Part shown: in pieces, positions 3,349 to 35,997 of the stretch
Numbering within the stretch: position 1 is the first letter of the stretch
Layout of the letters: the number at the start of each line of letters is the position of its first letter
Assembly: GCA_001874005.1 (NCBI GenBank)
Contig: MNYJ01000028.1
Location: forward strand, 4,185 to 40,256
Direction of reading: 5' to 3'
Length of the DNA stretch: 36,072 nucleotides
Origin: Desulfobacteraceae bacterium CG2_30_51_40
GTDB lineage: Bacteria > Desulfobacterota > DSM-4660 > Desulfatiglandales > Desulfatiglandaceae
Program-made: the position numbers and the translations under genes
Notes under the pieces: generated by a model
What the model was told of the DNA's origin: nothing
Seen by the model: only the letters and a program-made list of their open reading frames with translations
Database searches by the model: none

Positions 3349-3472
3349 TTACCCGGCCGACATCCTTGCCCGAAAGGGCCTCGTAGAAGAAGGCGTTTCA
3401 TTCCTTTCAAAACCTTTCTCCTCTGCCAGGCTTGCTTCCAAGGTAAGGAAGGTGTTGGATGGAAAACCATAG
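3349..3472 (+). pseudogene. Decayed tail of a third receiver-ended kinase gene
   Basis: Bases 3349-3465 match the 3' end of the hybrid kinase (2366-2482) nearly base for base at first and with clustered changes later. The frame from 3350 reads YPADILARKGLVEEGVSFL, continues SKPFSSARLASKVRKVLDGKP and stops at TAG 3470-3472; the kinase ends SKPFSAPGLAGKVRKVLEGNDE. There is no upstream receiver domain in frame. The differences are mostly conservative substitutions, which favours the remnant of a diverged paralogue over a very recent copy. It lies between the toxin-antitoxin operator and the ATPase promoter. Confidence 0.8.
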
Positions 3473-10772: not shown

Positions 10773-10798
10773 TATTTCACATCCTTTAAACTAACCCT

Positions 10799-10896
10799 CA
10801 TGCCCTTTTGGGGCACAACGAAAGATGAAAATCACCCCCACCTCTCCCTCCCCCGTTGAGAGGGAGGAGGAAAGGGAAGGGCTATTTTCATATAAA
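10799..10896 (+). repeat. Repeat family A, copy 1 (GC-rich palindromic element)
   Basis: Begins with a small hairpin (TGCCC-TTTT-GGGGCA), then CAACGAA, ATGAAAATCACCCCCACC, a central palindrome CCTCCCCCGTTGAGAGGGAGG and ends GGCTATTTTCATATAAA. The ATGAAAAT and ATTTTCAT ends are mutually inverted. It occupies the left half of a 315-bp gap; the right half (10897-11087) holds nothing recognisable except the ribosome-binding site GGAGAG of the next gene. Confidence 0.75.
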
Positions 10897-13639: not shown

Positions 13640-13764
13640 TTATATGAAAACACATCGTCATGCCGGCGTAGGCCGGTATCCAGTCTTTTACACCTGGATT
13701 CCGGATCAAGTCCGGAATGACAAGCGGCATTCTCATCCTTCGTTGTTTCCCAATGGGCCATGAC
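13640..13764 (-). repeat. Repeat family A, degenerate copy interrupted by another repeat
   Basis: Left end TTTATATGAAAACACAT and right end CATTCTCATCCTTCGTTGTT then CCCAATGGGCCATG match the two ends of the family A element in reverse orientation. The GC-rich centre has been replaced by the CGTCAT repeat at 13656-13722. An intact family A copy starts 4 bases further on. Confidence 0.6.
13656..13722. repeat. CGTCATnCCGG-type dispersed palindromic repeat
   Basis: CGTCATGCCGGCGTAGGCCGG at the left and GGATTCCGGATC...GTCCGGAATGACA at the right form two hairpins typical of a repeat found scattered in many proteobacterial genomes. Here it is nested inside a degenerate family A element. Confidence 0.65.
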
Positions 13765-13768
13765 CGTT

Positions 13769-13869
13769 TATATGAAAATGCCCCTTCACCTTTGTCCCTC
13801 CCCCTCAACGGGCTGGAGGGAAGGGTGGGGGTGATTTTCATCTTTCGTTGTGGCCCAGTGGGGCATGGC
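13769..13869 (-). repeat. Repeat family A, copy 2
   Basis: Reverse orientation: TTATATGAAAATGCCCC, centre CCTCCCCCTCAACGGGCTGGAGG, GTGGGGGTGATTTTCAT, CTTTCGTTG and the hairpin TGGCCCAGTGGGGCA. It ends just after the stop codon of gspK, so it could also act as the 3' hairpin of the gsp transcript. Confidence 0.75.
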
Positions 13870-13871
13870 GG

Positions 13872-14876
13872 CTAGTTCCTAAAGACCCCGTAAGCATCAA
13901 CCACCTTAAGGCTTATTATTACGGGGATATCCTTCCCGGTTCTCCTGACCGACGCGGTTATTGTCTTTCTGAACTTCTCCACAATCCCCGATGATGTCAC
14001 CTCGAATGAATCGCTGCCAAGCTTTATGAAGGAGGCATCAAGGGCGATATGGCTCATGCCTGAGACATTTTTATACCACGTTATCTCATCGAGGCCGTTA
14101 TCTTCCAGCGTCCTGTATTTTGCCATCCTCTCGGCCGCCTCATAGTCCATTTGATCCGACAGGGCATAGAGCACCTCCGGAGGAGCGGTGTTTATGTTGA
14201 TCCGGCCGTCCCCGTATATGGCAAGAAAACCGGCAATCCCGGGCTTTTCGTTTGTCCCGTAATAGAGTTCCTTTGTCATTCCCCTCACCAGGAGAAGCTC
14301 ATCAAGGGAATCCATGCGACCGTTTTTGCATTGATATGGTGCTGCAAGAGATAGATAATATGAATTTTCAGCACCGAATCCCGTTATCTGATCGTCCTCA
14401 TCCAGCCAGTCAATTAGCGCATCCAGTAGATCAGACACGCTCTGGTTATCCGTCCCGAATGCCTTATGGTTCATTAGTCTTTCAAGGACGGCCCGCTGCT
14501 TGGGGTCTGGCTTGCCAGTCGAATCAATGAGGCGGTTTATGTTAATCCGGCCGCAGAGATCTGTAATGACAAGATCGCAGCTTCCCTCTTCAAAAAGCGC
14601 CCCCGAATATAGTCTAAGCGCCTGGGCCCTCGCCCAGGGCTCTTTCAGCGTATCTATCTCGCCCTGTATTGCGTCCTCATAGAGGGCCGCCAGTGCTATA
14701 TGGACACCTGATCTTGCGATTGCGCCCGCTTTGACCCCCTTGCCCGTCCTTGATGAGGCAATAAGATCATCCCTCATTGAGATATTAAAGTGAAGTCCCA
14801 TCGCCACAATTATGCCGGTTATGACCACGGCGAGCAGGAGGGCCACTCCCTCGTTATTTCTCAGAGGATTTTGCAT
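13872..14876 (-). CDS. gspK: Type II secretion minor pseudopilin GspK
   Basis: A 334-residue protein. Prepilin-type start MQNPLRNNEG followed by hydrophobic VALLLAVVITGIIVAMGLHF; as is usual for GspK the mature chain lacks Glu5. The large globular part carries two GRININ motifs (CGRININRLID and DGRININTAPPEVLYAL), hallmarks of the SAM-like domains of GspK, which caps the pseudopilus tip with GspI and GspJ. ATG 14876 is chosen over one 72 bases upstream because the prepilin leader starts there; it overlaps gspJ by 23 bases. It is the last gene of the gsp block in this window. Confidence 0.9.
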   Translation of the reverse strand: MQNPLRNNEGVALLLAVVITGIIVAMGLHFNISMRDDLIASSRTGKGVKAGAIARSGVHIALAALYEDAIQGEIDTLKEPWARAQALRLYSGALFEEGSCDLVITDLCGRININRLIDSTGKPDPKQRAVLERLMNHKAFGTDNQSVSDLLDALIDWLDEDDQITGFGAENSYYLSLAAPYQCKNGRMDSLDELLLVRGMTKELYYGTNEKPGIAGFLAIYGDGRININTAPPEVLYALSDQMDYEAAERMAKYRTLEDNGLDEITWYKNVSGMSHIALDASFIKLGSDSFEVTSSGIVEKFRKTITASVRRTGKDIPVIISLKVVDAYGVFRN

Positions 14877-19118: not shown

Positions 19119-19259
19119 CATATGAAAATGCCCCTTGCCTTTATCCCTCCCCCTTTACCGTCGAAACGTCGGGGTACGGCGGCATTATTCCCTCCCCCCT
19201 CGACGGGAGGGAGGGGTGGGGGTGATTTTCATGCTTCGTTGTGCCCTATTCGGGCATGG
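19119..19259 (-). repeat. Repeat family A, copy 3 (enlarged)
   Basis: Reverse orientation: CATATGAAAATGCCCC at the left, CGACGGGAGGGAGG in the centre, GTGGGGGTGATTTTCAT, GCTTCGTTG and the hairpin TGCCCTATTCGGGCA at the right. The centre carries an extra TTTACCGTCGAAACGTCGGG segment also present in the partial copy at 26447. It lies in a 434-bp gap (18988-19421) with no convincing gene. Confidence 0.75.
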
Positions 19260-19379
19260 GGGTTAGTAAGGAGACATTTTCATGGCGGGAGGCGACAGAG
19301 ACTTCCTGCCTTTGGCGTTTGGCCGGAAGTCTTGTCGTGGTTACAAGGAGATATCAACAAGGGGCAGGACGCTATCAGC

Positions 19380-26774: not shown

Positions 26775-26913
26775 TGTGTCCATCCGGAAATGGCTATTTT
26801 CATCGTCGTTGGGCTCAAATTTTAATCCTCGGAATACCTCTAATGTATTACTGCGGTTAAAATTATGGCCTGCCTTGAACTCGACGAAACTATCTCGTTT
26901 CCGGATGGGCACT
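26775..26913. mobile_element. MITE-like palindromic element, copy 1 (next to rpsU)
   Basis: 139 bp: left end TGTGTCCATCCGGAAATGG and right end TTTCCGGATGGGCACT are inverted repeats; inner TTGGGCTCAAATTTTAATCC pairs with GGTTAAAATTATGGCCTGCC. It has no coding capacity. It is the most diverged of three copies (lacks about 5 bp near the left end) and lies directly upstream of the rpsU ribosome-binding site. Confidence 0.8.
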
Positions 26914-28561: not shown

Positions 28562-28705
28562 AGTGTCCATCCGGAAATGGCTATTTTTACTGATTTCGGC
28601 GTTGGGCTCAAATTTTAATCCTCGAAATACCTCAATGTATGCCTGTGGTTAAAATTATCGCCCGCCTTGAACTCGACGGAACTATCTCATTTCCGGATGG
28701 ACACT
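28562..28705. mobile_element. MITE-like palindromic element, copy 2 (best ends)
   Basis: 144 bp with perfect 18-bp terminal inverted repeats: AGTGTCCATCCGGAAATG at the left and its reverse complement at the right. Inner halves also pair (GGCGTTGGGCTCAAATTTTA against TAAAATTATCGCCCGCC), so the whole element can form one long imperfect hairpin. It lies in the divergent DedA / YfgM-like gap (28527-28893) and is followed by repeat family A copy 5. Confidence 0.85.
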
Positions 28706-28728
28706 CATGGTGTCCATCTTTAAAAGTG

Positions 28729-28800
28729 ATGAAAATCACCCCCATCCCTCCCTCCCCCGTCGAGGGGGAGGAGTAAAGATGAGGGGCATTTTCATATAAA
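28729..28800 (+). repeat. Repeat family A, copy 5
   Basis: ATGAAAATCACCCCCATCCC, centre CTCCCCCGTCGAGGGGGAGG, end GAGGGGCATTTTCATATAAA. The left hairpin of the full-length element is missing. The next promoter's -35 starts 19 bases beyond its end. Confidence 0.75.
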
Positions 28801-28893: not shown

Positions 28894-29568
28894 ATGGCCG
28901 GATCTAAAGATACCAGAGACATTCTAAAGAGACCTGATGAATTTATTACAATTTCCGGAAAGGTACTACAGTGGGCAAGGGAGCACGGCAGGCCCCTTAG
29001 GTATGCCGGCATTGCCGTAGCAGTTGCGGCAGTCGTGTTTATTGCGGCCCACACCTATCTGAATTATGCTGACCGAAAAGGCCAGGATTCCTACAATAAG
29101 GCCTATAATGCGATAGCCGAGACAAATCCTTCTGAAAAGGCGAAGGAAAGCGCTCCGGAGGCAGTCACTTTATTTGAGGAAGTTATAAAGGATCACTCCC
29201 TTTCCAAGGCCTCAGCGCTTGCCCTTGCCCAACTGGCAAACCTGAAATACAGAGAGAAAAACTACGATGAAGCCATAGCCCTTTACCGTAAGTTCCTCGT
29301 AGAGATGGCGGGCAAGACCAGATATGAGAATCTGACCAAGCTTGCACTTTCCGCGTGTTATGAGGCGAAGGCGGATCTGAAAAACGCTATAGAACTGCTC
29401 AATTCCGTGCGTGACTACCCTTTGCTTAAAGAAACAGCCCTCTGGAACCTCGCCCGCCTTTACCGCCTATCCAACGAGACAGAGAAGGAAAAGGAGGCCC
29501 TGAAACAGTTTGCTGAAGAGTTTACAGACTCACCTTTCCTGCCTCTTGCGAAGGCTCGCATGCTCTAA
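28894..29568 (+). CDS. Membrane-anchored TPR protein, YfgM / TPR_21-like
   Basis: A 224-residue protein with a short cytoplasmic N-terminus, one membrane span (about 36-53: LRYAGIAVAVAAVVFIAAHTYL) and a periplasmic helical domain with TPR-like repeats (SKASALALAQLANLKYREKN, YDEAIALYRKFLVEMAGKT, NLTKLALSACYEAKADLKNA). Such proteins (YfgM of E. coli, TPR_21 family) associate with the Sec translocon and periplasmic chaperones. AAGGA lies upstream of the ATG. It stands between repeat copies 5 and 6 and is probably transcribed alone. Confidence 0.78.
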   Translation: MAGSKDTRDILKRPDEFITISGKVLQWAREHGRPLRYAGIAVAVAAVVFIAAHTYLNYADRKGQDSYNKAYNAIAETNPSEKAKESAPEAVTLFEEVIKDHSLSKASALALAQLANLKYREKNYDEAIALYRKFLVEMAGKTRYENLTKLALSACYEAKADLKNAIELLNSVRDYPLLKETALWNLARLYRLSNETEKEKEALKQFAEEFTDSPFLPLAKARML

Positions 29569-29585
29569 CAGGCTTGGCCTGTTTG

Positions 29586-29675
29586 TTCACAACGAAGGAT
29601 GAAAATCACCCCCACCCCTGCCTCCCCCGCCGAGGGGAAGGGGTAGAGGGATGAGCCGCAGAAAATTTTCCCGGA
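29586..29675 (+). repeat. Repeat family A, copy 6 (degenerate right end)
   Basis: TTCACAACGAAGGATGAAAATC followed by ACCCCCACCC and CTCCCCCGCCGAGGGG match the family A consensus. The right end has decayed to AGAAAATTTT, so its inverted repeat is poor. It ends before the ribosome-binding site GGAGAGGAG of the CoA ligase gene. Confidence 0.65.
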
Positions 29676-35820: not shown

Positions 35821-35840
35821 CGAATCGAGAAAGATTAGTT

Positions 35841-35984
35841 AGTGTCCATCCTGAAATGGCTATTTTCACCGATTTCGGCGTTGGGCTCAAATTTTAATCC
35901 TCGAAATACGTCTATGTATTCCTGTGGTTAAAATTATCGCCCGCCTTGAACTCGACGAAACTATCTCATTTCCGGAGGGACAGT
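35841..35984. mobile_element. MITE-like palindromic element, copy 3
   Basis: 144 bp: left end AGTGTCCATCCTGAAATGGC, right end TCATTTCCGGAGGGACAGT, with the same palindromic interior as copies 1 and 2. TA dinucleotides flank GTGTCC and GGACAG on both sides (…TTA-GTGTCC and GGACAG-TAG…), which would suit a TA target duplication, but copies 1 and 2 do not confirm it clearly. Confidence 0.8.
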
Positions 35985-35997
35985 AGTTAACGCCGTG

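Follow-up and report, generated by a model that had tools for sequence, protein, structure and literature searches.

The three hairpin-forming repeats in the window, a 36,072-nucleotide stretch of contig MNYJ01000028.1 from Desulfobacteraceae bacterium CG2_30_51_40, are almost certainly non-autonomous MITEs, and they belong to a group of elements in which the part conserved across the phylum is the interior instead of the ends, inverting the usual MITE pattern. This interior, an imperfect hairpin core of about 95 bp, is bounded by the ends of at least three insertion sequence (IS) families, ISNCY, IS5, and IS1182, and also by ends for which no partner IS was found.

An earlier note on this DNA had described three intergenic copies, at 26775-26913, 28562-28705, and 35841-35984. 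All three copies and their intergenic placement were confirmed, and their limits were refined so that the copies run from GTGTCC to GGACAC (Table 1). The description of each copy as a fully palindromic hairpin holds for the folding, each copy folding stably as DNA (z = -6.6, -6.6, and -4.8 for copies 1, 2, and 3, with 0 of 200 shuffles equally stable), but the symmetry was overstated, since the palindromes are imperfect: the outer 17 to 18 bp pair near-perfectly, while the interior is about 69 to 70% self-complementary in reverse-strand self-hits. Copies 1 and 2 have either lost an exact target duplication or never had one, and for this reason they look older. Copy 1 starts 15 bp upstream of the start codon of rpsU, which lies on the minus strand from 26760 and was identified by its ribosomal protein family (Pfam ID PF01165); no consensus sigma-70 promoter was detected at copy 1 upstream of this gene.

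Table 1. Positions of the three element copies and their parts, counted from the first nucleotide of the window.
Feature	Position	Strand	Remark
Copy 1	26776..26913	+	138 bp, 6-bp deletion inside, without exact target duplication
Hairpin tip of copy 1	26824..26858	+	model match 26783-26903, 98 bits
Copy 2 (element under study)	28563..28704	+	142 bp, without target duplication
Left terminal repeat of copy 2, GTGTCCATCCGGAAATG	28563..28579	+	class A, ISNCY-type end; similar end on the L353 IS
Imperfect-hairpin core of copy 2	28587..28680	+	conserved; common to elements with other end classes
Hairpin tip of copy 2, AATCCTCGAAATAC..GTATGCCTGTGGTT	28617..28650	+	conserved mismatches; from alignment
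Right terminal repeat of copy 2, reverse complement of GTGTCCATCCGGAAATG	28688..28704	-	
Target duplication TAGTTA, left flank of copy 3	35836..35841		
Copy 3	35842..35983	+	142 bp, final base altered
Hairpin tip of copy 3	35896..35929	+	model match 35849-35974, 136 bits
Target duplication TAGTTA, right flank of copy 3	35984..35989		

A second interspersed repeat of the window, with the core GATGAAAATCACCCCCACC..CTCCCTCCCCCG, occurs at 10791-10882, 28695-28786, and 29565-29656, and also at 13710-13876 and 19206-19267; it partly adjoins copy 2. Two 117-bp direct repeats (2366-2482 and 3349-3465) with 90% identity lie 983 bp apart.

The search of the host genome assembly (3.44 Mb in 229 contigs) with the end GTGTCCATCCGGAAATG, allowing at most one mismatch, gave 191 forward and 191 reverse matches, and the reversed control pattern gave none; the genome carries about 190 copies of the element. 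Numerous copies are situated at contig ends, as would be expected if such a repeat breaks the assembly, and the element accounts for a large repeat family situated at contig breaks in these assemblies. The 341-kb host sample, which was chosen partly for contigs with matches and is not to be extrapolated genome-wide, contains 42 core copies, none of them inside open reading frames of at least 100 amino acids, which cover 85% of its DNA. All 42 copies of this sample are intergenic, as are 82 of 83 in a wider set. Fewer copies lie between co-directional genes in the host sample, a depletion that is absent in the wider set.

The elements are short and non-coding and have terminal inverted repeats, target duplications, and many dispersed copies, as is expected of MITEs, and their mobility is well supported by the sequence comparisons. 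A genome of the same genus (G001) is syntenic with the host across the window and lacks copy 1; a short A+T-rich segment there separates the rpsU-upstream and the downstream sequence that both genomes share. This site is diverged and A+T-rich, and hence it does not give the base-exact pre-insertion sequence. Segmental duplication, which the earlier note had expected to reveal itself by copies aligning past the inverted repeats, was rejected, since the alignment of the copies stops at the element ends. The number of copies genome-wide, the 6-bp duplication TANNTA of intact copies, the diverged but syntenic site without copy 1, and the ISs with the same ends in relatives (L353 and L361), all of them comparisons that the note had proposed, bear out its reading of the repeats as MITEs.

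Relatives carry the same interior of about 95 bp between other ends, and about 195 core copies were classified by their ends into five classes. Class A ends (GTGYCCATCCRKAAATG) are accompanied by the 6-bp duplication TANNTA, which is exact in 40 of 83 elements, and class E ends (GTGYCYGAACGAAAACT) by a duplication of the same form, present in 11 of 21. For class B (GAGACCTTTGMAAAAY), a 5-bp duplication was found in 26 of 45 elements and for class C (GAGSCARTTTCAAAAY) a 4-bp duplication in 10 of 14, while class D elements (GGAGGCTGTCCGAGAATG) are inserted in CTAG. More distant members have additional ends, for example GGCTACCTCTAAAAATTG, AGATTGCTGACAAACT, and AGTTTCCATCCATAAATG. The ends are unrelated between classes, whereas cores from different classes and genomes share an identity of about 86%, and nearly all intact elements have a length of 140 to 145 bp, near 142 bp whatever the end class. 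Hairpins with the same tip motif, whose stems and ends are otherwise quite unlike (e.g., ATAACTTCC..GGAAGTTAT), were seen at L282 2395-2580, L144 226-350, and L176 3624-3749, and are possibly further end classes.

Both class A partner ISs encode transposases of the ISNCY type (NF033593, cutoff 325 bits): L353 is 1664 bp long with the target duplication TAATTA and scores 425 bits, and L361 is 1693 bp long with the ends GTTTCCATCCGGAAA and the target duplication TAAATA and scores 439 bits. In genome G050, a miniature element with matching GTTTCC ends adjoins the class A-type IS. The class E partner L348 matches the same family with 508 bits, its class E ends lying about 1.93 kb apart without an exact duplication. 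The class B partner L265 belongs to the IS5 family (224 bits, cutoff 140) and has the target duplication GGCCT, and an IS5 with class B-like ends is found inside the phylum as well (L371). The class D partner L360 is a member of the IS1182 family (398 bits, cutoff 270) with the ends GGAGGCTGTCCGAGAATA/GGAGCTTGTCCGACAATG and CTA/TAG flanks. End and IS searches gave no IS partner for the class C ends.

The interior does not appear to be derived from a parent IS, the core showing no similarity to the tested partner ISs except for a 16-bp chance match; such a derivation is not strictly defining and is missing in many known MITEs too. The earlier note had reported no transposase with matching ends in the window, and profile searches with PF01609, NF033593, and NF033581 found none in the host genome either. 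For this reason, we infer mobilization in trans from the relatives. End-pattern searches of the host genome likewise found no IS with class A ends. In genome G061, the contigs C126, C171, C224, C234, C247, and C368 (L213, L215-L217, L219, and L220) end a few bases from GTGCCCATCCAGAAATGC, which suggests an unassembled class A insertion sequence there. Contigs of a viral collection carry a 142-bp class B miniature (L264 5405-5546) and a full IS5 (L265 12569-13790) with the same GAGACCTTTGCAAAAC ends.

Searching with a covariance model, we found the core in 56 of the 247 sampled genomes of the phylum and in 47 of 170 genera, with 106 copies in G252, a genome of one contig, and 148 copies in genome G154. 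The public matches are MAGs labelled Deltaproteobacteria, Desulfobacterales, Desulfobacteraceae, Syntrophaceae, or Syntrophobacterales, and a few are labelled Proteobacteria/Pseudomonadota only. Carriage by phages or plasmids was rejected, as neither the window element nor its variants matched the phage and plasmid collections and the core was not found in the viral contigs searched. A weak but significant relative of the core, with class B ends (L264; 32 bits, E 4e-5), lies on a contig of the viral collection.

The distribution of cores over the classes bears on how the ends are exchanged. In 56 of 67 cases, the core most similar to a given core shares its end class, and cores of different classes are not more alike within a genome; wholesale swapping of ends within a genome is therefore not supported. 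The direct signs of exchange are a derived, truncated core variant common to class D and class E elements on the L094 contig, and one derived insert that is found again in elements of classes B, D, and E (L086, L137, and L117), where the same segment may instead have been inserted independently. As the cores are partly structured by class and such direct signs are few, the sequences make it likely that exchange of ends is occasional and not constant.

The core set was partly gathered by the core pattern and its alignments are model-fitted, which favors conserved, paired cores. Among 33 diverse cores, 11 of the 21 predicted pairs are changed on both sides with pairing kept, and the covariation is 0.253, compared with 0.101 after shuffling, with 0 of 500 shuffles as high. 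The signal collapses once the partners are slid. A more diverse core set, in an alignment that was fitted to the model and contains a few reverse-strand rows, gives 0.644 versus 0.194. Asymmetric motifs are kept in the left arm (AATCTCTGCGT) and the right arm (CCTTGANCTTGA), as is the mismatched tip AATCCTCGAAATAC/GTATTCCTGYGGTT, with other families having the GC-rich tip variants TTGTGCGGCGTAC/GTACGCCTCCGC, and the same mismatches and unpaired tip and mid-stem motifs recur across end classes and families. Small GC-rich palindromes, e.g., TCCCGCTAAAGCGGGA, were noticed at recurring places within the stems of certain elements (L228 1501-1700, L087 1994-2130, L145 6033-6174, and L164 2648-2782), and some insert-carrying elements retain intact target duplications.

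None of the properties expected of a structured RNA, namely, tolerance of G-U over A-C, a fixed orientation relative to genes, and an Rfam family, was found. The paired cells of 69 non-redundant copies comprise 1278 Watson-Crick, 22 G-U, and 22 A-C pairs, a count that leaves out one conserved wobble. The copies show no orientation preference relative to genes (26 versus 23 in the wider set and 4 versus 3 in the host sample), and the Rfam search of the element and core gave no match above threshold. Because G-U and A-C pairs are equally rare, no orientation bias is seen, and Rfam has no match, the results suggest that the hairpin acts as DNA rather than RNA. A functional RNA, either a small RNA or an mRNA element, that was spread by transposition would agree with the strong covariation and the conserved loops, and copy 1, so close upstream of rpsU, may be transcribed, but G-U pairs on the transcribed strand are tolerated in helices of RNA, and together with the missing orientation bias and Rfam match, this makes an RNA core rather improbable.

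Pairing of the arms could also be maintained by hairpin-templated repair or by template switching during replication, with no functional selection involved. The large excess of paired over one-sided changes and the absent strand preference would be explained in this way, but correction should yield a perfect palindrome, yet the same mismatches persist across classes and families, and we consider this origin of the pairing unlikely. The 96 to 97% identity of many host copies to the query copy is what a recent burst would leave, and an ordinary MITE with a neutral filler interior, its core seeming conserved only through recent spread from one ancestor, would agree with this. Such an element is, however, hard to bring together with a core that spans 47 genera, keeps an identity of about 86% between classes and genomes while its flanking ends are unrelated, and retains its tip motifs while its stem changes are compensatory, so that we give this explanation little credence. 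REP and attC sites are likewise imperfect DNA hairpins with conserved mismatches, but it is very unlikely that the core is a site for an HUH/REP-type nuclease or an integron-type recombinase providing a second mobility route, since the duplications follow the end class and not the core, and no insertions of the core alone with a junction of their own were noticed.

The probable explanation for the window elements is mobilization in trans by an ISNCY-type transposase, with the core most likely aiding in cis as DNA. An ISNCY-type DDE transposase (NCBIfam NF033593), supplied in trans, would recognize the GTGTCCATCC ends and move the element, and the insertion would duplicate a 6-bp TANNTA target. 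The core, which does not seem to be IS-derived, would act in cis at the DNA level, for example by bending or by hairpin extrusion, bringing both ends of the 142-bp element together, a length close to the stiffness length of DNA. Such help in cis would lead to the use of the core with several DDE transposases and to the constant element length. The relatives make it highly probable that an ISNCY-type transposase is the mover in this host lineage, while a cis-acting DNA role of the core is a possibility to which we give slightly less than an even chance. More tentatively, the elements could be phylum-wide satellite transposons whose heritable identity is the conserved imperfect DNA hairpin, a cis-acting transposition module that has taken up ends from at least three IS families (ISNCY, IS5, and IS1182) and can be moved by each of these. 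The conservation of the interior for longer than the ends points to a function of the MITE middle and to an exchange of ends between IS families, opening the question of whether a DNA hairpin helps a 142-bp element to join its ends for several different transposases.

MITEs are defined by their ends, and their interiors are regarded as leftovers. REPs, which depend on RAYT, are not known to have the terminal repeats of DDE ISs or to make a target duplication, TIMEs have constant ends and variable contents, and the Correia elements have, to our knowledge, one type of end. The element sequences were not found in the main texts of the papers searched, and we found no description of a single interior joined to ends from several IS families. 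In the genome paper of Geobacter metallireducens, 24 "predicted short RNA elements" with a central GRCGTAGCGCTGCTACGCC are listed and described as present in Desulfotalea too (PMC2700814). In L319 and L327, the GC-rich tips closely resemble the palindrome GRCGTAGCGCTGCTACGCC of these intergenic repeats. The Geobacter repeats (PMC2700814, Additional file 4) were interpreted as RNAs, and neither ends nor target duplications nor transposases were assigned to them; possibly one branch of the present elements had been seen there before and taken for RNA, which we regard as a lead only.

The Correia elements of Neisseria are palindromic MITEs of about 150 bp with many copies, at times acting as promoters (PMC4853749), and resemble the present elements in size, palindromy, and copy number, whereas the ends differ. 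The REPIN/REP-RAYT systems (PMC3116915, PMC2817692) are similar in being imperfect DNA hairpins with many intergenic copies, but the present elements have both terminal inverted repeats and target duplications. The TIMEs, which are Tn3-derived miniatures (PMC4133298), are modular and non-autonomous like the present elements, with the constant and variable parts in the reverse arrangement. Bacterial MITEs that are moved in trans by ISs include Chunjie from Geobacter uraniireducens, MITEAba12, and QMITE2, which are likewise short, non-coding, and intergenic, with terminal inverted repeats, class-specific duplications, and high copy numbers (PMC10969869). A family of these MITEs is defined by its ends, with an interior that is variable or decaying, whereas the elements described here are held together as a family by their interior, and their ends come from at least three IS families.
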